DNA from: Methanocella arvoryzae MRE50
GTDB lineage: Archaea > Halobacteriota > Methanocellia > Methanocellales > Methanocellaceae
DNA: 64,000 nt
NCBI RefSeq assembly: GCF_000063445.1
Contig: NC_009464.1
Location: 992,001 to 1,056,000 of the forward strand
Direction of reading: 5' to 3'
Every line of letters begins with the position of its first letter. The stretch's first letter is position 1. Position numbers and translations under genes: made by a program. The notes beneath the pieces were generated by a model. The model was given only the letters and a program-made list of their open reading frames with translations. It was not told the DNA's origin and did not search any database. This document shows positions 33,137-46,959 of this stretch, piece after piece.

Positions 33137-33820
33137 TTATGAAGTCTCTTTCCACTTCTTCAGCGTCAGGTCCTTCGAGTAGTTCTCCCGGACCCGCTTT
33201 ACTTCCGAGGGCACACCGTTGATCCTGATGACCAGCGGTCCCATCGTAGAGTCGTGGAAGGGGAAGATGAGGTTATTTTCATCCTTGTCGTCAATAGCCA
33301 CTGGTATATAATCTTTACCCAGCGGCCGCAGGCCAAGCACCCGGAATTCCGGGGGGAAGTAGTAGGTTTCCCAGTATTTCGACCGGATGAACTTTTCGCA
33401 CTCCCGGAAGGTCTTGAAGTGGGACAGGATGTCGTAGTTGAAGTTCCTGAGAGAGACGTCTAGAGGACATGTAATAGCTTCTGCCCGGGCAGTCTTGCCG
33501 GACGAGCCTGTCCATCGGTCCAGGGTGAGCGATTTGGTATAGCCGGTCCGGACTCTCTTCACCTCATCTGGAACTCCCGGAATGCGGAGGACGAAGGTGC
33601 CCATGCACGGCTTGGTATACGTGAAGATGATGGTATCGTCCGTGTTATCCTCGATGGCTACCGGGATCGCGCCCTCTCCAAGGGTACGAAGGCCGAGCAC
33701 CTGAAAGCCCGGCTCGAAGTAGTAGGTTTCCCAGTATTTCGACCGGATGAACTCCTCGCCCTGGCGGAGGGTGCAGTGGGAAAGCAGGATTTCGTAGTTG
33801 TAATCGTTGAGACAGGCCAT
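33137..33820 (-). CDS. Tandem-duplicated methanogen protein (possibly DUF1894-type)
   Basis: The 227 residues consist of two homologous units of about 105 residues (1-108 and 118-227). Each contains YEILLSH/YDILSHF, then an identical FIRSKYWETYYF, a VLGLR motif, a PVAI-D segment, and a C-terminal VIRINGVPSEVKRVREN-like part. It tentatively resembles methanogen family DUF1894, but single-unit members are shorter. No catalytic motif is evident. It lies 10 bp after marker 14 and 10 bp before the Lys/Ala/Pro protein, in one transcription unit. The role is unknown, presumably connected with methanogenesis. Confidence 0.65.
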   Translation of the reverse strand: MACLNDYNYEILLSHCTLRQGEEFIRSKYWETYYFEPGFQVLGLRTLGEGAIPVAIEDNTDDTIIFTYTKPCMGTFVLRIPGVPDEVKRVRTGYTKSLTLDRWTGSSGKTARAEAITCPLDVSLRNFNYDILSHFKTFRECEKFIRSKYWETYYFPPEFRVLGLRPLGKDYIPVAIDDKDENNLIFPFHDSTMGPLVIRINGVPSEVKRVRENYSKDLTLKKWKETS

Positions 33821-35498: not shown

Positions 35499-36437
35499 TT
35501 ATACCAGCTTCTTGAGCGGGTGCTCGTCGACGGTCACAGTGCCCAGGTCCTTGGCAGCCTCTGCGACGATGATGTCGTTCATGGCGACTGCGGGGAAGAC
35601 CTCGACGGAGTGCTCGATCGGACCGTACAGGCAGAAGTCGCAGCCGAGGGTGATGGCAACGAGGTTGCTGCCAATGTCGGAGGGCATGTATGCGCCTTCC
35701 TTGCCGGGCTGCTTCTTGAACTTCTTCAGCCACGCCCATGCGGACGGGATGTTGTGGTAGCCGCCGCCCACAGGCTCTCCGAGCTGGGACTTGACAGCGA
35801 AGATGGACCTGTAGGTCGCACCGGAGCCGCTGCCGAGCGGGGTTGCTGCTACGTCGAGGAGGGGCCTGGTGATGCCCTTCTCGGTGGCGAGGGTGAGCAT
35901 GCCCTTCGGCTGGCCTGCGCCGCCCTTGGTGAACATTTCCATCCTGCCCTTGACCGACATGTCCATGGCGTTGAAGCCGAGGACGATGGCGGAGGTGAAC
36001 TTCAGGGGCTGCAGTGCCTCGATTTCGGCTGCCTGTGCGGCGGCGTTGATCGAGTTGTAGATGACCCTGTCGCTCAGGCCGATTTCGTCAGCCTTCTTGG
36101 CGCCGGCGACCCTCGCGTCTGCGACGGTGGAGTCGATGAGGAATGCGTCCTTGCCGATGTCTGCGTACCAGGTGATGTACTTGCCCATGGCCTCGCCATA
36201 GTCTGCGACAATCTGGAGCCAGATCGGGTTCCCGGTGATGTCGCTCATCTCTTCCTGCTGCCTGACAAGCTTCTCTGCAACTTCCTTGTCGAACGCACCG
36301 GTCTTGGTGTCGGTGACGATCTTGTGCTTGCCGTAGAAGATAGAACCTGCCAGTACGGTGGGGTACTCGCCCGGCTGGCCGCCTACCTTAGCTCTACCAA
36401 CCTCGTAGACTTTCTGTTGATTTGCATACTTGAACAT
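35499..36437 (-). CDS. mtrH: Tetrahydromethanopterin S-methyltransferase subunit H
   Basis: MtrH transfers the methyl group from methyl-H4MPT (or H4SPT) to the cobalt of the MtrA corrinoid; it is the cytoplasmic catalytic subunit. The 312-residue TIM barrel opens with MFKYANQQKVYEVGRAKVGG and carries YPTVLAGSIFYGKHKIV, FLIDSTVADARV, AIVLGFNAMDMSVKGR and TLGCDFCLYGPIEHS. GGGAGGT precedes the ATG at 36437. It is the last gene of mtrEDCBAFGH, 13 bp after mtrG. Confidence 0.97.
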   Translation of the reverse strand: MFKYANQQKVYEVGRAKVGGQPGEYPTVLAGSIFYGKHKIVTDTKTGAFDKEVAEKLVRQQEEMSDITGNPIWLQIVADYGEAMGKYITWYADIGKDAFLIDSTVADARVAGAKKADEIGLSDRVIYNSINAAAQAAEIEALQPLKFTSAIVLGFNAMDMSVKGRMEMFTKGGAGQPKGMLTLATEKGITRPLLDVAATPLGSGSGATYRSIFAVKSQLGEPVGGGYHNIPSAWAWLKKFKKQPGKEGAYMPSDIGSNLVAITLGCDFCLYGPIEHSVEVFPAVAMNDIIVAEAAKDLGTVTVDEHPLKKLV

Positions 36438-36450
36438 TGGTAAACCTCCC

Positions 36451-36651
36451 TTAAATCAGTCCTAACTGGATAAATATGCTGTACGCGATGTAGATTAATG
36501 CTCCGAACAGGAACCCGTACAGTATTCCGACTTCTCTGCCTAACCTCTTTCCTTCGGTCTGCTGGATCTCGGCGAAGGTGAACTCCACCTTCTCCTCGAT
36601 GCCGTCGACCTTCTTGATCGCTGCTGCGTAGTCCTTGGGGTCTACGTACAT
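36451..36651 (-). CDS. mtrG: Methyltransferase subunit G
   Basis: This 66-residue Mtr subunit has a soluble amphipathic N-terminal part (VDPKDYAAAIKKVDGIEEKVEFTFAEI) and one C-terminal membrane helix (VGILYGFLFGALIYIAYSIFI). Length and layout are typical of MtrG, which forms part of the central stalk of the Mtr complex. It lies between mtrF and mtrH with 1 and 13 bp spacings. Confidence 0.92.
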   Translation of the reverse strand: MYVDPKDYAAAIKKVDGIEEKVEFTFAEIQQTEGKRLGREVGILYGFLFGALIYIAYSIFIQLGLI

Positions 36652-36652
36652 A

Positions 36653-37399
36653 TTAGATACCTCCCATCAGCCACACGGGGATCAGTACGAACGCAATCAC
36701 GAAGACTGCGCCCAGGACGAACCCGAGGACTTTCGTTGCGCCTACAGCAGAAGTCAGCTTCTGGTTTCTTGCACAGAGCTGTGCACGGTAGCAGACGTCG
36801 TCTACCAGAGGCGGAATTTCCTTGTCCGGCTTGGCAGCTGCAACGGTGGTTGCGACTTCGCCGCCGGCTTCTTCCTCTTCCTCGCCGATCTTGGTTTCCT
36901 TGATCTCGAGCAGCATCGGCTCACCGGCAAACGCACCGGGATCCTTAGCGATACAGTCCTTGATGGCAGCCGTAATCTTCTGCTCATCCTCTACATCAAT
37001 CATGTAGACAGTCTGGACCTGCTCCTGGAACCTCTTGACAGCCTTGTCATCAAGGTTCTCAATAAAGGGAATAGCACCCTTAGCACCGACAATCCTGCCG
37101 CCCTTAAGACCATTCTTGTGCAGACACTCCAGAGCATCGCCCGAAATGTGGCCCTTAACCTCAGCACCGGTAATAATGATAAACCGGATGTTCGGATTCG
37201 AGATAACGTTAGCCACAATCTTCTCGATACCCAGGTTCTCAGTGTGGAACGGACCCGAAATGGCAGCACCAGCCTTAATCGGCCACTGGCCGAAGTGGGA
37301 ACCCGCAGTCGCTACTGCAACACAGCTCTTCGGGTCACCAACATCGAACTCGCCCTTAATAACCGGCCATCCCTTTGCTGGCTCTTTCTTTTCAACCAT
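36653..37399 (-). CDS. mtrF: MtrF fused to a second MtrA corrinoid domain
   Basis: This 248-residue protein sits in the mtrF position but is over three times the usual MtrF length. Residues 1-182 are identical to MtrA encoded next upstream, including His84 in VKGHISG, the lower ligand to cobalt in MtrA. Residues 183-248 replace the MtrA tail with an MtrF one: VDDVCYRAQLCARNQKLTSAV and a single membrane helix (VLGFVLGAVFVIAFVLIPVWL), as in stand-alone MtrF. A short linker (ATTVAAAKPDKEIPPL) joins them. Automatic annotation would probably call this a second MtrA and report mtrF as missing. If made as one chain, each Mtr protomer would have two corrinoid domains. Confidence 0.85.
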   Translation of the reverse strand: MVEKKEPAKGWPVIKGEFDVGDPKSCVAVATAGSHFGQWPIKAGAAISGPFHTENLGIEKIVANVISNPNIRFIIITGAEVKGHISGDALECLHKNGLKGGRIVGAKGAIPFIENLDDKAVKRFQEQVQTVYMIDVEDEQKITAAIKDCIAKDPGAFAGEPMLLEIKETKIGEEEEEAGGEVATTVAAAKPDKEIPPLVDDVCYRAQLCARNQKLTSAVGATKVLGFVLGAVFVIAFVLIPVWLMGGI

Positions 37400-38210
37400 A
37401 TTAGATCACCTACTTAATCCTCAATGTCGATAGGTCCACTCCCTGCGGGAACAGCAGAGCGAGCAATAGCAGGGACAGAACGAGGCCGATCATGACGCCT
37501 TCCATCTTGCCTGCGTACCAGCCCATGGCGAACTTGTTCAGGTAGCCGATGCCCTTGACATCCTGCTTGATGAGCCTGATCCTGCTCTGGATCATCATGA
37601 TCTCAGAGGCCATGCCGCTGACGACACCGCCTGCGGGGACTGCGCCTGCGACAACTTCGCCGCCGGCTTCTTCCTCTTCCTCGCCGATCTTGGTTTCCTT
37701 GATCTCGAGCAGCATCGGCTCACCGGCAAACGCACCGGGATCCTTAGCGATACAGTCCTTGATGGCAGCCGTAATCTTCTGCTCATCCTCTACATCAATC
37801 ATGTAGACAGTCTGGACCTGCTCCTGGAACCTCTTGACAGCCTTGTCATCAAGGTTCTCAATAAAGGGAATAGCACCCTTAGCACCGACAATCCTGCCGC
37901 CCTTAAGACCATTCTTGTGCAGACACTCCAGAGCATCGCCCGAAATGTGGCCCTTAACCTCAGCACCGGTAATAATGATAAACCGGATGTTCGGATTCGA
38001 GATAACGTTAGCCACAATCTTCTCGATACCCAGGTTCTCAGTGTGGAACGGACCCGAAATGGCAGCACCAGCCTTAATCGGCCACTGGCCGAAGTGGGAA
38101 CCCGCAGTCGCTACTGCAACACAGCTCTTCGGGTCACCAACATCGAACTCGCCCTTAATAACCGGCCATCCCTTTGCTGGCTCTTTCTTTTCAACCATAT
38201 TAGATCACCT
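36856..38210. repeat. Two copies of a 555-bp direct repeat in mtrA and mtrF
   Basis: About 36856-37411 and 37655-38210 (offset 799 bp) appear identical base for base, including the AGGTGATCTAAT ribosome site before both ATGs. I found no mismatch by eye. The repeat covers the full MtrA catalytic domain and stops where the tails diverge. Such identity means a very recent duplication or continuing gene conversion. Confidence 0.9.
37410..38198 (-). CDS. mtrA: Methyltransferase subunit A (corrinoid protein)
   Basis: MtrA carries the 5-hydroxybenzimidazolyl cobamide that receives the methyl group from MtrH and passes it to coenzyme M. The 262 residues have the soluble N-terminal domain (WPVIKGEFDVGDP, CVAVATAGSH, VKGHISGDALECL with His84) and the usual MtrA C-terminus: an amphipathic section (MMIQSRIRLIKQDVKGI) and one membrane helix (GVMIGLVLSLLLLALLF). 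The acidic linker GEEEEEAGGEV separates them. It follows mtrB by one base. The N-terminal 182 residues are duplicated in the next gene. Confidence 0.95.
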   Translation of the reverse strand: MVEKKEPAKGWPVIKGEFDVGDPKSCVAVATAGSHFGQWPIKAGAAISGPFHTENLGIEKIVANVISNPNIRFIIITGAEVKGHISGDALECLHKNGLKGGRIVGAKGAIPFIENLDDKAVKRFQEQVQTVYMIDVEDEQKITAAIKDCIAKDPGAFAGEPMLLEIKETKIGEEEEEAGGEVVAGAVPAGGVVSGMASEIMMIQSRIRLIKQDVKGIGYLNKFAMGWYAGKMEGVMIGLVLSLLLLALLFPQGVDLSTLRIK

Positions 38211-38514
38211 TCGCGAGTATCAGCATTACTAATACGAACGCTGCTATGCCACCAAAGATGAAGCCGTAGAACAGGTTGGTCCCGATGCTGGCGTAGTACA
38301 GAGACTTTTCCCTGCCGGGGTATGTCTCCAGGAATGGGCCAGTGGGGGTCAGCGAGTTCATCAGGTCATCTGCGTACTTGTCGAGCTTGTCGAGGTTCTC
38401 GTTGATAGGCTTGAAGTTGTACTTTACGACGCCTCCTGCCTCGGGCTCGACTTTACCCGTCTTGTAGTTGTACGAGAGCTTGTACTCTGGTAGTAACTTT
38501 ACGTAGTCCGTCAT
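38200..38514 (-). CDS. mtrB: Methyltransferase subunit B
   Basis: A 104-residue Mtr subunit with a soluble N-terminal region (VKLLPEYKLSYNYKTGKV), a helical middle (NLDKLDKYADDLMNSLTPTG) and one C-terminal membrane helix (FGGIAAFVLVMLILAKVI). It is part of the stalk holding MtrA. It begins at the base following the mtrC stop region and ends a base before mtrA. Confidence 0.93.
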   Translation of the reverse strand: MTDYVKLLPEYKLSYNYKTGKVEPEAGGVVKYNFKPINENLDKLDKYADDLMNSLTPTGPFLETYPGREKSLYYASIGTNLFYGFIFGGIAAFVLVMLILAKVI

Positions 38515-39429
38515 TTACTGCTCCTCCTTCTTGGGTAAGAGACCAGTGGCGAGTACAGGTACTCCGCTTTCCTTGACCTTGCCGAAGTATGCCAGGTATG
38601 CGATGAACCAGGCGATCAGGCCCAGCGCGATGGTGATAACGCTGGAGATCATGGTCTGCATGGTGATCAGCTTGGTGTCGACAATCGCTTTGCCAGTCGC
38701 TGCGTCAACGGTGAATGCCGGAGCGGCGAAGGACAGAATGCCGAAGATAACCATGCTCATGGTGGCAGCCTCGACGGCCAGAGTGAGCGTCCTCTTCTGG
38801 AACTCATCCGGACCCATGCAAGCGTTGAACGCGTGCAGCATCGGGAGAGCGCCTACGATGAAGAGCGGGGCGATGAAGCCGGTGTCGACGACCTTGGTCA
38901 TCACAGAGCCGAAGTCGAATGCTCCGCCAGTGATGGCGACCGAGTAGCCGAGGTAAATCATGGATGCGGCACCCGCAATCATGGTCATGCCGACCTGCAT
39001 GGTCGGGATCTTCATCTTGATGATGTTCTGTGCAATGAAGCCGATGATGGCACCCTGGATCAGGGAGAAGATCAGTGCGGCTACAGGAGCGACTAACAGT
39101 GCGACGGAGATGCCCGAGACGACCATGGACAGGCCGTGGGTTGCGAGGTAGTCTCCGAGGGCGAGGCCGAGCAGAGTCGTGGCCAGACCCATACCGAAAG
39201 CGAGCATGCCGATGGACGGCACACCGGTACCGATACCGAACTTACAGATCCTTCTGACTGCGTCTGCACCCCAGACGGTGGCCAGAATTGCGCCTACTGC
39301 ACCCAGGAAAGCAAAGTAGCTTACACCGAGGACAGTGTTCAGGGCATATGCAGCGTAGATACAGATCAGGCCGCCAATGATTCCTATGCCGGCGAGAGTG
39401 TACCAGTCAATATCCTTGTGTTCTGACAT
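38515..39429 (-). CDS. mtrC: Methyltransferase subunit C
   Basis: MtrC is one of three large membrane subunits (C, D, E) that couple methyl transfer to sodium export. The 304-residue protein has about seven or eight hydrophobic helices and conserved segments such as FGIGTGVPSIGMLAFGMG, NACMGPDEFQKRTLTLAVE, and a positively charged C-terminal loop (YFGKVKESGVPVLATG). Its length is somewhat above the common 265-270 residues. It is located between mtrD and mtrB. Confidence 0.94.
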   Translation of the reverse strand: MSEHKDIDWYTLAGIGIIGGLICIYAAYALNTVLGVSYFAFLGAVGAILATVWGADAVRRICKFGIGTGVPSIGMLAFGMGLATTLLGLALGDYLATHGLSMVVSGISVALLVAPVAALIFSLIQGAIIGFIAQNIIKMKIPTMQVGMTMIAGAASMIYLGYSVAITGGAFDFGSVMTKVVDTGFIAPLFIVGALPMLHAFNACMGPDEFQKRTLTLAVEAATMSMVIFGILSFAAPAFTVDAATGKAIVDTKLITMQTMISSVITIALGLIAWFIAYLAYFGKVKESGVPVLATGLLPKKEEQ

Positions 39430-39432
39430 TGT

Positions 39433-40212
39433 TTAAGCCCCCATCAGGAACATGATTGCAGCTGCCCAGATGCCCAGGACAACCGATGCGATGAGACATC
39501 CGATGAATGCCCTCGGCCACCTCTTGAACTTGGGGTCGTGGAAGCCTTCGATGGTACCAGCGATGTTGTACGAGGCCAGCACGGAGTTCACGAAGAAGAT
39601 GCCGATTGCGACGAATGCTGCTGCTGCGATAGAGAACCCGCCAGCCAGGAGTGCCAGGTAGGTCAGAGCGCCGCCGATGCCTGCGAGGAAGCCGCCGATG
39701 AGGGAGCTTACTACAGCTACGGTCGGAGTGCCGTGGCCTTCTGTACCCTTGGTGACGTAGATGTCCTGCCTGTCGCCGGTTACGGGGTCAAACTTGACCT
39801 TGGCCGATGCGAGGGGGACACCGAGTCCGAAGATGTACAGTACGTTGGGTACTACGCAGAGGATTGCGATCATCAGCATGGCGCCGATGATACCGGCGAC
39901 GATGATGATGGCGATGGCACCGATGTTAGCGGTGATGCCGGCGATGCTGAAGAGCGTGCCGTTAGCCAGTGCTTCTGCAAATCCGGGGTACTGGATCTTG
40001 TTGATGAGTATTTCTTCAGTTACCAGTCCTGCGCTGATCAGGCCGAGGAAACCAGACGATGCGGCCAGCATGGTGGTGCCAGTACCGATACCGGTTGCCT
40101 GCGCCATTGCGGCAGGTGCGCCGCCGACAGGCACGAAGTGGACACCAAGACCGACGAGAAGTCCGCCGAGGCCGATGCATGCGACTATAATTACGAGAGT
40201 TAACGGATCCAT
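39433..40212 (-). CDS. mtrD: Methyltransferase subunit D
   Basis: A 259-residue membrane subunit of the sodium-pumping Mtr complex. It opens MDPLTLVIIVACIGLGGLLVG and carries the MtrD segment HFVPVGGAPAAMAQATGIGTGT, with around six to seven hydrophobic helices and a cytoplasmic loop GLGVPLASAKVKFDPVTGDRQDIYVTKG. It is spaced 3 bp from mtrE and mtrC. Confidence 0.95.
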   Translation of the reverse strand: MDPLTLVIIVACIGLGGLLVGLGVHFVPVGGAPAAMAQATGIGTGTTMLAASSGFLGLISAGLVTEEILINKIQYPGFAEALANGTLFSIAGITANIGAIAIIIVAGIIGAMLMIAILCVVPNVLYIFGLGVPLASAKVKFDPVTGDRQDIYVTKGTEGHGTPTVAVVSSLIGGFLAGIGGALTYLALLAGGFSIAAAAFVAIGIFFVNSVLASYNIAGTIEGFHDPKFKRWPRAFIGCLIASVVLGIWAAAIMFLMGA

Positions 40213-40215
40213 GTT

Positions 40216-41109
40216 TTAGTCCTCCGCTTCCCTGTACGGGCCGTAGTTCTTCCTCGCCCACAGCTCGATGATCCTGTTGAAGGCGACGATAATCAGAACG
40301 ATGATCAGGCCAGCGATCATGGCGCCCCAGCCGTTCGCGAACTCGATGAAGATGATGTGTCTCCACAGGTCCACGAAGACAGTCAGGCCGAGACCGAGAC
40401 CGGTCAGCGGACCGCCGTGCTTTACGCAGAAACCGGCGATGTCAGTGCTGCTTCTGAGGCCAGCCTCGCCCTTCTGGATGATCTTGCCCGAGCTGGCGAT
40501 CGGAAGGCCCATACCGAACGGCTTTGCCTGGTACTGCCTCTCGGCACCGTAGTGTACGTCACCGACTGCAGAGCCCATACCGCCAGTCATGATACCCCAG
40601 AGAAGAGCCAGAATCGGGAACGGGAAGGGTTGTCCAATGATAACATTCAAAAGGTACGAGAAAGTTGCGATTGCCATCGTTGCAATAAATGCATGTGCAA
40701 TAATCGAAGGTGTAGTTACCAGCAATACATCGAGATACACGGGCTGGCCGAACCTCATCTGGCCGGTGATCCTGCCCATATATGCCGTTGTAGCATATAC
40801 ACCGTACATCAGCGCTGCGACGGTAGCGCCGAGAGCTAACGATATTACTATGTTGAGGCTAAATGCCGTGGCCAGGGCCAGAGCAATAGCAGCTCCAGTA
40901 GCGGCTAAAAGCCCATAGGCAACAGGCTCACCGCAAACCGCTTTGTTGTATATACGGTGAAGATAGCCTACCTGTGGAGCCAGCTGCACTTGCGAGTTTG
41001 CGTTGGACTGTGAACCGAAGTCGGATTCAAGGTCCTCGGCTGCACCCGCGATGGTTGCGCAAGCGCCCATCAGTGCGAGGGTTCCAAGGCTAACTGCCAA
41101 TTCATCCAT
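40216..41109 (-). CDS. mtrE: Methyltransferase subunit E
   Basis: The first gene of the mtr operon encodes a 297-residue membrane subunit. Diagnostic features are LGTLALMGACATIAGAAEDLESDFGSQSNANSQVQLAPQ near the N-terminus (an MtrE signature), MGGMGSAVGDVHYGAE, and DIAGFCVKHGGPLTGLG. About seven hydrophobic helices are visible. AAAGGAGGATAAC precedes the ATG at 41109. A promoter region with an 11-bp dyad lies directly upstream. Confidence 0.96.
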   Translation of the reverse strand: MDELAVSLGTLALMGACATIAGAAEDLESDFGSQSNANSQVQLAPQVGYLHRIYNKAVCGEPVAYGLLAATGAAIALALATAFSLNIVISLALGATVAALMYGVYATTAYMGRITGQMRFGQPVYLDVLLVTTPSIIAHAFIATMAIATFSYLLNVIIGQPFPFPILALLWGIMTGGMGSAVGDVHYGAERQYQAKPFGMGLPIASSGKIIQKGEAGLRSSTDIAGFCVKHGGPLTGLGLGLTVFVDLWRHIIFIEFANGWGAMIAGLIIVLIIVAFNRIIELWARKNYGPYREAED

Positions 41110-41345: not shown

Positions 41346-43016
41346 TTACTTTGCGGGAATGACGAGAGATCTCTCGCCTGCCGGCATGAACTCGCGGATT
41401 GCGCCGCGGGCAAACTCCTTCCTCGGCTCGGTGAAGTCGAAGGCAAGGCTCTTGTCTGCGAAGGCAATCTTGATGAGCGGGCTTGCGACCCACGCATCGC
41501 CACGGCCGTAGTGGGCTGCGCCGGCGATACCGGTGTAGCCACCCTGGTGGCCTACGTTCATTGCGTAGTTCGGGTAGTTCGGGCCTCTCAGTTCATCGAT
41601 TGCGCCCTCGTCGGACCTGCAGGAGAACACGTTGGTTGCACCGCACTGGTCCTGCAGGTCGTAGCCGAAGAAGCCCAGCCTGCCCCATGCTTCCTTGTGC
41701 AGGTACATGGACAGGTACCAGGCCGACAGGCCTGCGTTGGCGTTGCCGGTCGCGAGAGAGGTGGTGACACCTGCTGCTGCGGACAGGACAGTCGCCCTCT
41801 GCGAGCCACCGAAGTGGTCCTCGAGGGTGGTCGGGTACTTCTCGTACTGCTCGATGCCGTACAGGGTGACTTCAGTGCCGATGTCGTTGACTACGTCCAT
41901 GGTCGGCTTCGCCTTGGCGATGCCGTACTTGCCCTTGATGTAGTCGTAGCCGTAGTAGCAGAAGTCATCGAGGATGTCGTCAGTGTATGCAGCGGTTGCA
42001 TACTGGGTGAAGCCGACACCGCCGGACATGTAGCTGCCGAGCCAGATCTGGTCGTACAGCATGCAGCCGGATGCGACGGTCTCGAGCGAGGACTTCACGG
42101 GGTCGTCCGGGTATTTCCTGTGGGTCTGGACAATGTCTGCCAGGAAGCCGAAGGATACTCCACCGGGCTCGTTGGGGCCACGGGCACGCCTTGCGGGCAG
42201 GAGGTTACCCATCTCGACGACCGATGCGTGCTTGGCGGCGAATGCGAGGTCTGCGACTGCTGCCTCACCGGCGCACATCTTGTATGCGTCGATGAACGAC
42301 ATGCCGATCTGCATTGCGGACCACCTGGAGGTGGTGCCACCGTCGCAAGTCCTGACTACGATGGTCGGGATGTGGACAGCCTGGAACAGCTGCTTGCCGA
42401 TAGCCTTCTTGAGCTGGGCGGCCTGCTCCTTGGGGAATGCCTTGTTGATGTCCAGGACGTACTGCTTGTCGATGGAGTCGGCGAGCTCGTCGTCACCGGT
42501 GAAGACCTTGACGAAGCAGTCGTCGGTGAGGCCCGGGTGGGTCTCGACCATGTGTTCCTGTACGACTGCTGCGCCCGGCATTGCGTGGTTGAGCACTGCC
42601 AGGTAGTTGCTGATCGTTTCAGGGGTGACGGTCTTGCCTAACCTCTTCTCGAGGGTGGCGTGGGCGGTGTCAAGGCCTACGATGACGGTCCTGCGGATCT
42701 CATCCCAGAACTGCTGCATTGCAGCGTTGTTGACGAAGTGCAGGTCGTCGCCTTCAACTGCGATGTCAGTGCCGCTGACTACATAGTTCATCAGCTGCCT
42801 CTGACCGAGGGGGATACCTCCCATGTGCACCATGGGGTTGTACATGGAGATGCCTCTCTTCTTCGCGATTGCGTCGCCGGTCTTCTTGAACTCGACCTTT
42901 CTCTTGGACTGAGTGTAACCTTCGTACTTGAACTTGGTTACCTGGGCGGTCGGCTCTTCGGCGAACTTCTTCTTCATTGCCTTGATGAATCTCTTCTGAG
43001 TTTCCTTAACTGCCAT
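41346..43016 (-). CDS. mcrA: Methyl-coenzyme M reductase alpha subunit
   Basis: McrA holds the nickel F430 active site that releases methane from methyl-CoM and CoB. The 556 residues contain [11 protein letters not shown] (site of the methyl-His), [19 protein letters not shown] (methyl-Arg region), and [16 protein letters not shown], which carries the thioglycine position and the Cys of the S-methylcysteine site. The residue just before the thioglycine is Phe, where some methanogens have Tyr. It ends ERSLVIPAK as usual. It is the last gene of mcrBDCGA. Probable modification enzymes (YcaO-TfuA) are encoded about 11 kb downstream. Confidence 0.98.
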
Positions 43017-43031
43017 TTAGCTCACCTCTCC

Positions 43032-43790
43032 TTACACCTTCGGGTAGAAGCCGCACTTTGTCCTGAGGGTGAAAATCCTCTGGACCCAGCCAACTACCTC
43101 GTCGTCGGACCTGAAGGAAACGCCATCGATCCTGTAGATGGTCGTCCTCTTCTTGAGCTCTGCTTCGGACATGGGCTTGCCGAGGTTGACCTTGCGGTCG
43201 AGCGGGTCGCCGACCTGGTCCTTGACTGCCTTGACGGTGCCGTCCTTGTCCAGGACCTGCCTCTGCAGCATGTCGAACATCATGCCGTTCTCGTTCAGCC
43301 TGAGCGAGTGGCCGTGCACAGTGCAGCCTCTGAGGGATGTCCTGGCGGGGTCGAACATCTCGGTCTCGAAGGTTTCCTTGGTGATCTTCTCAAGGTCTCT
43401 CTCACGAGCTTCGATGATCTGCCTGCCGGAGAGGGTGCCTGGGTCTACTCCCCTGTACCTGGTGACTGCCATCCATGACCTGAGGTAGGGGACCATCGGG
43501 GCGAAGTACATGGAGTCAGCGTACTGGTTGTACCTGATCCTGTCGCCTGCCTTTGCGCCGGGGGTGGGCTCGACCAGCTTGCGGATCGGGCAGTCCGGCT
43601 CGTTGCTCTCGGTTAAGGGCGGGTGGATGGTCTTGTATGCGGAACCCGGAGCGCGGTGTCCCAGCATGATGACGATGTCATCATCGGAGAGGCTCCTGAG
43701 CTTCTCCATCTTGTATGAGGGGTCCATGAACTTCTTACGGTTCTGGGCCACAGAAGTCTTACCTGGGTAGAACTGTGGTTTGTATGCCAT
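43032..43790 (-). CDS. mcrG: Methyl-coenzyme M reductase gamma subunit
   Basis: McrG completes the alpha2-beta2-gamma2 core of MCR. From the ATG at 43790 it reads MAYKPQFYPGKTSVAQNRKK, 252 residues; conserved parts are IVIMLGHRAPGSAYKTIHPPL, YNQYADSMYFAPMVPYLRSW, and LRGCTVHGHSLRLNENGMMFDML. A TTG three codons upstream begins the open frame, but GGAG is better spaced for the ATG. It is 15 bp upstream of mcrA. Confidence 0.97.
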   Translation of the reverse strand: MAYKPQFYPGKTSVAQNRKKFMDPSYKMEKLRSLSDDDIVIMLGHRAPGSAYKTIHPPLTESNEPDCPIRKLVEPTPGAKAGDRIRYNQYADSMYFAPMVPYLRSWMAVTRYRGVDPGTLSGRQIIEARERDLEKITKETFETEMFDPARTSLRGCTVHGHSLRLNENGMMFDMLQRQVLDKDGTVKAVKDQVGDPLDRKVNLGKPMSEAELKKRTTIYRIDGVSFRSDDEVVGWVQRIFTLRTKCGFYPKV

Positions 43791-43802
43791 ATCATTCAAC
43801 TC

Positions 43803-44429
43803 CTACTTTGTAGTGAGCTTTTGCGGGTTTAGTTCAATGATATGCTTCACGATCTCGTTCAGCTTGTCTCTTGCACAAGTCTGACCTCTCGTGATACCGG
43901 TTACGATCTCAACGACTGTTCCCTGTGTTTCGACTTTGTCCTCGGGCGGCTGGACCACGCGGGTCTTGACGCCTATCCGGGCGAAGTCCTCGAAGTCTAC
44001 CGGGGCCTGACAGACGATGATTGCGGGGATGTCGACAAAACGCAGGATGTCCCTGGCTTTGTAGATCACGTGAGATTTCACGTTGCCCAGATGTATCAAT
44101 GCCACTTTGTGCCGGCGTATCTGCTCGATCTCCTTCTCGTTCAAGCCGAACTTAGGCCCGTGGCCGATAGCTGCGTCCTCCGCATCGGAGGGCACGCCAC
44201 CGCCGGAATAGAGCACCAGGACAGATACCTGGATGCCTTCTTTCCTGAGCCCGTGGGTGATCTCGCAAACTGGCTTGGTTATGTGCCGCCTCCCGGGAGT
44301 CATGGCGATGGCGACCACATCGGGTCGGCCCGTTTCTGAAAGGGTGCCTCTCTGGGCGAGGCCTCCTCCCTTATCCAGGCCCATGCTTTCTCTGCAATCC
44401 ACAACCTGTGTCTCACGGTCTATTGGCAT
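43803..44429 (-). CDS. mcrC: Methyl-coenzyme M reductase operon protein C
   Basis: McrC is not part of the mature enzyme; it has been found with the ATP-dependent reductive activation complex of MCR. The 208 residues carry the family patterns VDCRESMGLDKGGGLAQRGTLSE, MTPGRRHITKPVCEITHGLR, SVLVLYSGGGVPSD, and VQPPEDKVETQGTVVEIVTG. It is spaced 12 bp before mcrG and 7 bp after mcrD. Confidence 0.94.
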   Translation of the reverse strand: MPIDRETQVVDCRESMGLDKGGGLAQRGTLSETGRPDVVAIAMTPGRRHITKPVCEITHGLRKEGIQVSVLVLYSGGGVPSDAEDAAIGHGPKFGLNEKEIEQIRRHKVALIHLGNVKSHVIYKARDILRFVDIPAIIVCQAPVDFEDFARIGVKTRVVQPPEDKVETQGTVVEIVTGITRGQTCARDKLNEIVKHIIELNPQKLTTK

Positions 44430-44436
44430 TTTTACT

Positions 44437-44940
44437 TCATCTCCGTTTTTCGTCTCTGTCGTCCGATTTCGGCGGGCAGTACGAGTATTTCTGCATCGCC
44501 CCGGGATCGGACATGCCCACAGATATGTCGTCGACTTTACCGCCTTTTCTCACGTAGTCCGTCAGCGTTTTCTGCGTCCGGATATAGAGACCCTCGTTGA
44601 TCTCGAACGGGAAAGGCAAAGTCTTTCGACACGCTTCGTTGATTTTATCTTTTACTCCAGGGTTCTCGATCTCCACGAAAATCCGCCCCACCTGGACGGT
44701 CAACTCGATTTTTTCACCCATGATGTCGAGAAATTTCTTCTCGCGGGCATCGAACTTTCCATCCAGGAGGTCTTTCGGATCATCCTTCGGGAGACGGGGG
44801 CCGTACACGATCATGCGGGTGATCCCGCCGATCTTGTTCAGCTCGTTGAGCAGAGCCTGGGCAGTCTCGATGTTGAGTAGCCGCTCGGGGAAAATCTCGA
44901 TTTGCATCAGGCGATTTTTCCCGGTAACCGGCGCTACCAT
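44437..44940 (-). CDS. mcrD: Methyl-coenzyme M reductase operon protein D
   Basis: McrD is a small MCR assembly protein that associates with apo-MCR. The 167-residue sequence has the family stretch QIEIFPERLLNIETAQALLNEL, MIVYGPRLPKDDP, KFLDIMGEKIELTVQVGRIFVEIE, and ends with a basic tail (DDRDEKRR). GGAGTTTAAG precedes the ATG at 44940; a second ATG 11 codons in is an alternative. It follows mcrB by 30 bp. Confidence 0.94.
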   Translation of the reverse strand: MVAPVTGKNRLMQIEIFPERLLNIETAQALLNELNKIGGITRMIVYGPRLPKDDPKDLLDGKFDAREKKFLDIMGEKIELTVQVGRIFVEIENPGVKDKINEACRKTLPFPFEINEGLYIRTQKTLTDYVRKGGKVDDISVGMSDPGAMQKYSYCPPKSDDRDEKRR

Positions 44941-44970
44941 TCTTAAACTCCGCTTTGTTCAGTTACCTGT

Positions 44971-46302
44971 CTAAATCTTGTCCTTGATTTCCTTGGCGCC
45001 CTTCGCTACTGCGACGAGCGGCTGGTTGAACTCGGGGATCTCACCGAAGACTTCCATTGCCTTGGAGGTCGACTCGGGCGAGAACATCTGAGTGCCTGCA
45101 TCAAGTGCGCAAGCTGCCGACACGCAAGGTACAGCGAAGCCCTTGGAGTGCCTGGTCACGACGTGGTTACCGTTGAAGATACCCGGTCCGCCGCCACCGT
45201 AGATCGAGTGGCTGAAGAACGAGAAGCCGACAGCGGTACCCTGGACCTTACCGAAGTCCACACCCGGAAGTGCGGTCTCTCTCTCGAGAAGGTCGTTGTA
45301 GTACAGCAGAGTCGAAGACACAGCCTGGGCGCCTCTGAGTGCACCGCAGTTGACCATCGTGGCTGCCATTACACCGGCTGCCGCGTAGGCGTTCCACTTC
45401 GGGATGTCGTCCGTGGTGTACACCTTGTATCCGGACGGAAGTGTCTTCTCGACTTTAATAACTTTGTCCTCGATGGCCTTGCCAACGATGGTGGCAACGA
45501 CGGAACCGACGGTGCCGTTCTTGCCGTTCTCCTTAACAGTGGAGTATACGAGGTTGTTCGCGTTCAGGCCCTGGTATGCGAAGCCCATTAACTGGTACCT
45601 CTCCCACGGACCGATTGCATCGCCCATTTCCCACACGCCTGCCTGCTCGAAGATCGAGTTCAGGGCAGCTGCGTTCATGGCGTTTCTCTTAGAGATGATG
45701 ACGCAGTGGTTGGTCGGAATGTTCCTCAGTGCGTAGCCGACACCTTCGTCCTTCTGGGGGACATCGAGAATCGACTTGACGTTGCCGCCTTCGAGGTCGA
45801 TCGTCTGCGGGTACATACCCCAGACAGCCGCCTTGACGAAGGCACCGTCGAACATGTCAACCTTGTACAGCTCGAGGATGGACTCGACGGTCGCGGTTGC
45901 GGTAGAGCTGATGCCTGCCACGAACTCTGCGCCCGCTTCTATCCTCTGGGTCGGTACCTGCACGAGCAGGCTCTTGCCGCCGCCGAGGACCTTGACGTTG
46001 GTGTCGTCGCCCTTGGTTACGCGGACCAGTTCCTCGATCTTCTTGGCGATCTTGTCTGCGTCCTTGGTCAGGGGTAAGTCCAGGCTCTTGCCCAGTACCT
46101 GCCTGCCCTTGCCGCCTACCTTACCAGTCTTAAGGGCATTCTCGATGCCTTCAAGGCTGACGGAGACGGATCTCTTGGTCAGGTTGACGATCTTGCGGAT
46201 AGCGGGGTTTACAATCGGGCTGACTGCCTCGAGTGGAACGTCCTTCTCCAGAAGCTTTCCCTTGTCATCATACAGGTCTATCTTGTCCTTATATTTTGGC
46301 AT
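44971..46302 (-). CDS. mcrB: Methyl-coenzyme M reductase beta subunit
   Basis: McrB is the second large subunit of MCR and the first gene of the operon. From the ATG at 46302 it reads [20 protein letters not shown] and has 443 residues. Conserved parts include [45 protein letters not shown], and [33 protein letters not shown] long GGGAGGAGGGAG ribosome site fixes this start against the open frame nine codons upstream. A long AT-rich region lies upstream. Confidence 0.98.
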
Positions 46303-46959
46303 TTTCTCCCTCCTCCCGTAGGATTTCAAAACATATCAAGTGGCCGAAGTGGCCGGATAACGGCTGTGGAGAGAAGCCTCGCCGCAAGCCAGGCAGTGTT
46401 TGTTGCCATGCTGCGCCAGGTCATCAATCGCTGAATTCCTAAAACGATCAGTATTGATATTCCTCTCTCTAACCACTTGAACAATAATGATATAGCATTT
46501 CAAAGATATTAAGTTTATGTCTCGTTAATCAATCATTTGAGCTTCAATATAGTTATAAACAAATGGAAAAGAAATAATCCAAATATATTCCTATAATTAC
46601 CTGTCATCCATATTAATCAATTTGTTACAAAACATGATAAATAAACGTAATTAGCTTCTTAATCGATATTATTTTAATATAAAAATAACTTCTAAAAAGG
46701 AGTGAATATCATACATTTGCAAGTGAATCTATAAATAGATTACTATATGTAAAAAAAAGACAAAATTAACAAGAAATAACTTTTTTAGCACATGTATCAG
46801 CATATTATTACAATAATGGTCGGGATAAGCGTACGATCTCAAATTAGAGCTACAATATGCCACCATATAGCATATTTAGCGTGTATTTTCCGATATTTTT
46901 AGGTTACGTTACAATGTAAATAAGCGTGGAATGAGGGGTGATGATCCAGTGATTTGGGG
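46303..46959. promoter_or_regulatory. AT-rich regulatory region upstream of the mcr operon
   Basis: A 657-bp gene-free stretch. Bases 46440-46950 are extremely AT-rich, quite unlike the flanking coding DNA. On the minus strand TATA-like elements lie near 46556-46546 (GTTTATAACTATA) and 46522-46510 (AACTTAATATCT), giving leaders of around 190-230 nt. The 110 bases next to mcrB are GC-richer and could be a leader. I see no long inverted repeat, no tRNA and no credible small gene. Confidence 0.5.

Follow-up and report, generated by a model that had tools for sequence, protein, structure and literature searches.

An old mtrA–mtrF fusion in the mtr operon of Methanocella arvoryzae, probably kept identical to mtrA by gene conversion, that would double the corrinoid shuttle domain of Mtr

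Mtr, the Na+-pumping methyltransferase, carries out the energy-conserving step of methanogenesis, and how many corrinoids each complex holds is relevant to its turnover and Na+ coupling. Both of the solved Mtr structures are of the single-corrinoid type. The mtr operon of Methanocella arvoryzae MRE50 raises the question of whether a complex may carry two corrinoid domains per protomer, as the usual mtrF slot, between mtrA-1 and mtrG, is occupied by a gene in which a second MtrA domain precedes MtrF, with the DNA of the two MtrA domains identical. The stretch analysed here, referred to as the window, spans 64,000 nucleotides (NC_009464.1, positions 992,001 to 1,056,000). Its minus strand contains, between 41109 and 35499, a complete mtr operon with the gene order E D C B A (AF) G H, and directly upstream on the same strand (41346–46329, minus) lies what we take to be an ordinary mcr operon, for methyl-CoM reductase. 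The mtr genes are as follows.

40216..41109, minus strand: mtrE, an open reading frame with orthologues in relatives
39433..40212, minus strand: mtrD, an open reading frame with orthologues in relatives
38515..39429, minus strand: mtrC, an open reading frame with an orthologue at the equal operon position in three relatives, named from operon order and homology
38200..38514, minus strand: mtrB (PF05440)
37410..38198, minus strand: canonical mtrA (mtrA-1), an open reading frame of 262 aa whose C-terminus bears a stalk/membrane helix of its own (PF04208; TIGR01111)
36653..37399, minus strand: the mtrA–mtrF fusion (mtrA-2a in Wang et al., 2015), an open reading frame of 248 aa (PF04208 and PF09472; TIGR01111 and TIGR02507 above cut-off)
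36451..36651, minus strand: mtrG (PF04210)
35499..36437, minus strand: mtrH (PF02007)

Elsewhere in the window, a 227-aa open reading frame (33137–33820, minus) appears to contain the same domain twice in tandem (...EEFIRSKYWETYYF... / ...EKFIRSKYWETYYF...).

The fusion protein consists of a corrinoid domain (residues 1–173), an acidic linker and the MtrF stalk/membrane helix (residues 187–244). A reading made from the sequence alone had proposed an MtrA–MtrF fusion at this position, and both Pfam domains are indeed present in one frame: PF04208 (MtrA) matches residues 4–173 (E 1.5e-82; 275.9 bits against a cut-off of 25) and PF09472 (MtrF) matches residues 187–244 (E 4.1e-22; 77.8 bits against a cut-off of 22), the latter over profile positions 4–62 of 62, so that the MtrF part is nearly full-length. 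The NCBIfam models TIGR01111 (272.3 against 249.15) and TIGR02507 (47.2 against 25) are also passed, and the protein scores below the cut-off of NF009776, the model for stand-alone MtrF (51.1 against 64). The tail of the fusion scores 81.4 bits with a profile of MtrF and 8.4 with a profile of MtrA tails. The MtrA domain thus stands without its own transmembrane tail and is joined in frame to MtrF, which is the anatomy of mtrA-2a genes.

The corrinoid domain aligns along its full length with MtrA of the two solved complexes (8Q3V, 9QTQ). His84, the cobalt ligand, Glu54 and the GAIPF elements of MtrA have been named previously (PMC4915002); in the fusions of this genome and of its relatives E54, H84 and G108-A109-I110-P111-F112 are invariant. 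An AlphaFold2 model of the fusion, made from a three-sequence alignment, reached a pLDDT of 38 and was discarded; solved structures of close relatives already give the fold. MtrA domains occur at two places in the whole genome (one contig of 3,179,916 bp), mtrA and the fusion, and a search of the same genome found no mtrF besides the fusion, from which we infer that the fusion protein takes the place of MtrF in the stalk.

At the DNA level the two genes share an exact repeat.

36855..37411, minus strand: 557-bp repeat, fusion copy, an exact match at offset 799
37654..38210, minus strand: 557-bp repeat, mtrA copy, an exact match at offset 799

The copies show zero mismatches over 557 bp at an offset of 799 bp, and each comprises 12 bp upstream of the ATG and 545 bp of coding sequence. 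The sequence-only reading had described an identical repeat of 555 bp; the identity is real, but the length was 2 bp short. It had also claimed that the first 182 residues equal those of MtrA and include His84, which holds: residues 1–182 of the two proteins are identical with His84 intact, after which they diverge abruptly, the tails being only 19% identical. Its suggestion that two corrinoid domains per protomer are possible agrees with the operon, which encodes two intact corrinoid domains, one on the MtrA stalk helix and one on that of MtrF.

Related genomes were examined to place the fusion in time. Within Methanocellaceae we compared the window genome, Methanocella sp. PtaU1.Bin125 (G029; loci L011/L015), G019 (L010) and G009, of which the first three carry the fusion and the last has a plain mtrF; the arrangement is the same in both G029 and G019. 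All three fusions have the domain order and a 12-residue linker, AAAKPDKEIPPL, in common, so that they descend from one fusion. Domains were compared by counts of fourfold-degenerate sites, the paralogues forming identical rows in the DNA tree. The DNA identity of the two corrinoid domains inside a genome is 100% in the window genome and in G029 and 99.6% in G019, with 0/75, 0/76 and 0/70 fourfold sites changed, whereas between genomes 32/68, 33/57 and 34–35/58–59 of these sites differ (47–59%), a divergence similar to that of mtrD and mtrE. The same contrast appears in total nucleotide identity, the window fusion domain being 100% identical to its own mtrA-1 versus 77–84% to the fusion orthologues. 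The MtrF tails of the fusions differ between genomes at 59–80% of fourfold sites, so the fusions are old. Pairs identical within genomes, with about half of the silent sites changed between them, are a pattern that a young duplication cannot produce and that repeated conversion of the domain can. On these comparisons the fusion was in place before at least three Methanocellaceae lineages diverged, and the two domains have been homogenised inside each genome by gene conversion that spared the tails.

The edges of the repeat are consistent with this reading. The only two bases that differ between the G019 copies, nt 478 and 493, lie close to the edge of the repeat, as would be expected of a conversion tract, and upstream of the ATG the copies share 12 bp in the window, 2 bp in G019 and 0 bp in G029, from which it follows that the ends of the tracts vary. 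A concatenated mtrEDCBGH protein tree, which groups M. arvoryzae with PtaU1.Bin125 but does not fix their order with G019 and G009, is compatible both with gain of the fusion after G009 branched off and with its loss in G009. As G009 lives without it, the fusion is not essential to Methanocellaceae.

How, then, might the identical pair have arisen? Perfect identity over 557 bp is something that assemblers can produce by error or by collapse or expansion of a repeat, but the chance of this here is negligible, since two separately assembled relatives carry the equal gene order, the tails are unique, in frame and conserved, the G019 copies differ at two bases and hence are distinct sequences, and the fusion was published independently from the same species (PMC4632066); the mtrA–mtrF fusion is real. 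The sequence-only reading had left recent duplication and gene conversion side by side, and Wang et al. (2015; PMC4632066) likewise left the choice undecided for M. arvoryzae. A recent duplication of mtrA in the M. arvoryzae lineage alone, followed by fusion to mtrF, with identity reflecting youth (their figure S6A), would account for the 100% identity and the tandem position. Yet this fusion, with the same linker, recurs in two further genomes in which 47–59% of fourfold sites have changed and in each of which the two copies are near-identical to one another, and recent duplication would require three independent fusions at one point with one 12-residue linker, so that this scenario is largely refuted by the comparison and we regard it as very improbable. 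Conversion of an old fusion is the part of the earlier claim that survives, on the evidence of the fourfold sites and the shared linker, and the explanation moves accordingly from duplication or conversion to an old fusion with conversion.

The origin preferred by Wang et al. (their figure S6B) is that a group III mtrA came to lie beside mtrF and fused with it, after which conversion replaced its sequence by that of mtrA. This is compatible with conversion, and it could draw on the window genome and G019 being without a group III mtrA and on G009 having one and no fusion. Free 191-aa MtrA-like proteins are encoded in G029 (L013:2392-2967) and G009 (L014:3449-4024) and are not found in the window genome or G019; they probably correspond to what Wang et al. 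called group III mtrA. The G029 gene lies on contig C55, whose neighbouring genes have close relatives in M. arvoryzae and G019 (64–67% identity), which indicates that the contig is genuine. G029 thus carries both the fusion and a free group III-like mtrA, so that loss of group III and presence of the fusion are uncoupled and this origin is deprived of its main argument, the lack of group III in M. arvoryzae. We consider it distinctly unlikely, although an earlier extra group III copy is conceivable, for which conversion would have erased the evidence; a direct duplication of mtrA now explains more simply how the old, converted fusion began.

A corrinoid domain on an MtrF tether is also encountered outside Methanocellaceae. 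In seven ANME-1/Methanophagales loci (L050–L053, L055–L057), the sole corrinoid domain in the operon has an MtrF-type tail. With profiles of MtrA tails and of MtrF built from other loci, for which leave-group-out controls gave a clean separation (48–82 bits for the own class and 3–19 for the other), this tail scores 47–51 bits as MtrF and 3–9 as an MtrA tail in all seven. Mei et al. (2023; PMC9982363) called the gene following [AF] a duplicate mtrF; the next open reading frame in these loci, of 68–69 aa, however, scores 39–42 bits as an MtrA tail versus 15–20 as MtrF, and the arrangement is better written as [A domain–F] + [A stalk helix] than as [AF]F. A corrinoid domain on MtrF can evidently serve, judging from these operons, as the only one. 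As the MtrF tether would there be sufficient alone, a function for the Methanocella fusion is supported by analogy.

The structures suggest how such a domain might work. Each protomer of M. mazei Mtr has one MtrH dimer and four stalk helices, one each from MtrA, B, F and G; MtrB, F and G contribute their N-termini to one extended sheet, and the MtrH dimer is bound to MtrB, three dimers giving six MtrH (PMC12774963). In M. marburgensis a flexible linker, disordered and rich in Glu and Gly, ties the corrinoid domain to the MtrA helix, and both MtrH and MtrCDE have to be within reach of the domain (PMC10998594). The linker of the fusion is acidic, like MtrA's own tether. If both proteins are incorporated in the stalk, a trimer would carry as many as six corrinoid domains rather than three, and since the N-termini of MtrB, F and G carry the MtrH dimer, a domain hung on MtrF would stand beside MtrH. 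It would take the methyl group from methyl-H4MPT on MtrH and pass it to CoM at MtrCDE, like the MtrA-borne domain. The most likely gain would be a higher occupancy of the shuttle and possibly the use of the second, distal MtrH active site, which the authors of the M. mazei structure considered hard for MtrA to reach (PMC12774963). Homogenisation could be kept up by recombination between the tandem 0.5-kb repeats, and selection may tolerate or favour it, MtrH and MtrCDE being partners that each of the two domains has to fit. The six-domain assembly, the cobamide on the MtrF-borne domain and the use of the distal MtrH are all predictions from the gene arrangement; a literature search for expression, protein or cobamide data on M. 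arvoryzae, proteome data included, found nothing relevant.

It might instead be supposed that MtrF carries its domain as a passive passenger, or as an apo or regulatory copy, with catalysis left to the MtrA-borne domain alone. Conversion by itself would preserve active-site residues by copying them, so an intact His84 cannot be counted as separate evidence that the domain is used in Methanocella. We nevertheless think a passenger unlikely, as the in-frame fusion has been kept in three lineages, the ANME-1 operons have no corrinoid domain other than the MtrF-tailed one, and in Methanococcales and Methanomicrobiales this domain has been fused to stalk subunits independently (PMC4632066). Taking the evidence together, we consider it likely that M. 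arvoryzae has a real mtrA–mtrF fusion, old and homogenised, which doubles the shuttle domain of Mtr and allows up to six corrinoid domains per trimer. A more ambitious form, which we put forward as speculative and rather doubtful, is that each MtrH would have its own shuttle, the MtrA-borne domain serving the membrane-proximal and the MtrF-borne domain the distal MtrH. The distal MtrH, seemingly idle in single-corrinoid complexes, would then be put to use, and the corrinoid domain would be a mobile cargo that can ride on the MtrA, MtrF or MtrG stalk helix, having passed wholly from MtrA to MtrF in ANME-1.

The operon of PtaU1.Bin125 has a further peculiarity, an extra gene of 106 aa between mtrG and mtrH (L015:5996-6316, plus strand; equal to L011:2598-2918, minus strand), which was not seen in the window. 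The N-terminal arm of the protein (MVTHIKLLPEFKLSY...) resembles MtrB, with 64% identity over 25 residues but only a weak Pfam MtrB match (E 0.42), and is joined to a second MtrG, 88% identical to the adjacent one. In M. mazei Mtr the MtrB arm holds the MtrH dimer (PMC12774963), and in PtaU1.Bin125 the docking sites for MtrH may therefore have been doubled along with the corrinoid domains.

The fusion marks organisms in which a two-corrinoid complex should exist and from which it could be purified. For evolutionary studies, it offers a clear example of a half-kilobase tandem repeat whose identity is kept by conversion across species with about half of their silent sites changed, with adjoining tails left free to evolve.

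Considering the known systems, the fusion in M. arvoryzae is neither new nor unprecedented. Wang et al. (2015; PMC4632066) devoted a section to M. arvoryzae, describing an mtrA-F fusion downstream of mtrA-1 with two highly similar copies; they reported that mtr operons of Methanococcales (mtrA-F) and Methanomicrobiales (mtrA-G) have two mtrA copies as standard, that the MtrA domains are under concerted evolution by gene conversion, and took M. arvoryzae as the sole fusion case in its order. A later survey by Wang et al. listed mtrA again (PMC6053082). The mtrA-2a genes of M. arvoryzae and Methanococcales, the latter resting here on PMC4632066, are the same gene as the window fusion, in the same operon place, with the same domain order and near-identical corrinoid domains. 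The anatomy given here is no different from their account; what is added is the fusion in two more Methanocellaceae genomes, and the comparison of the three settles most of the choice between recent duplication and an old fusion with conversion. The mtrA-2b genes of Methanomicrobiales (mtrA-G) likewise place a second corrinoid domain on a stalk helix, near-identical to mtrA, as also seen in L026, L029, L047 and L048, but the partner is MtrG and the gene follows mtrF rather than replacing it. Matches in Methanoperedens were rejected as fusions, mtrA and mtrF being separate genes there. The EDCB[AF]FGH operons of TACK archaea, Methanoliparia and ANME-1 (Mei et al., 2023; PMC9982363) have a corrinoid domain with an MtrF-type tail, as in the window fusion, although [AF] is their only in-operon corrinoid domain and the window operon has two. 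All eight subunits of the M. marburgensis (8Q3V) and M. mazei (9QTQ) complexes have counterparts in the window; both complexes have one corrinoid domain per protomer and a free, unfused MtrF of about 7 kDa, whereas MtrF in the window is fused. The earlier statement of a single corrinoid subunit per protomer in known Mtr complexes is therefore correct for these two solved complexes, but not for mtr operons in general.
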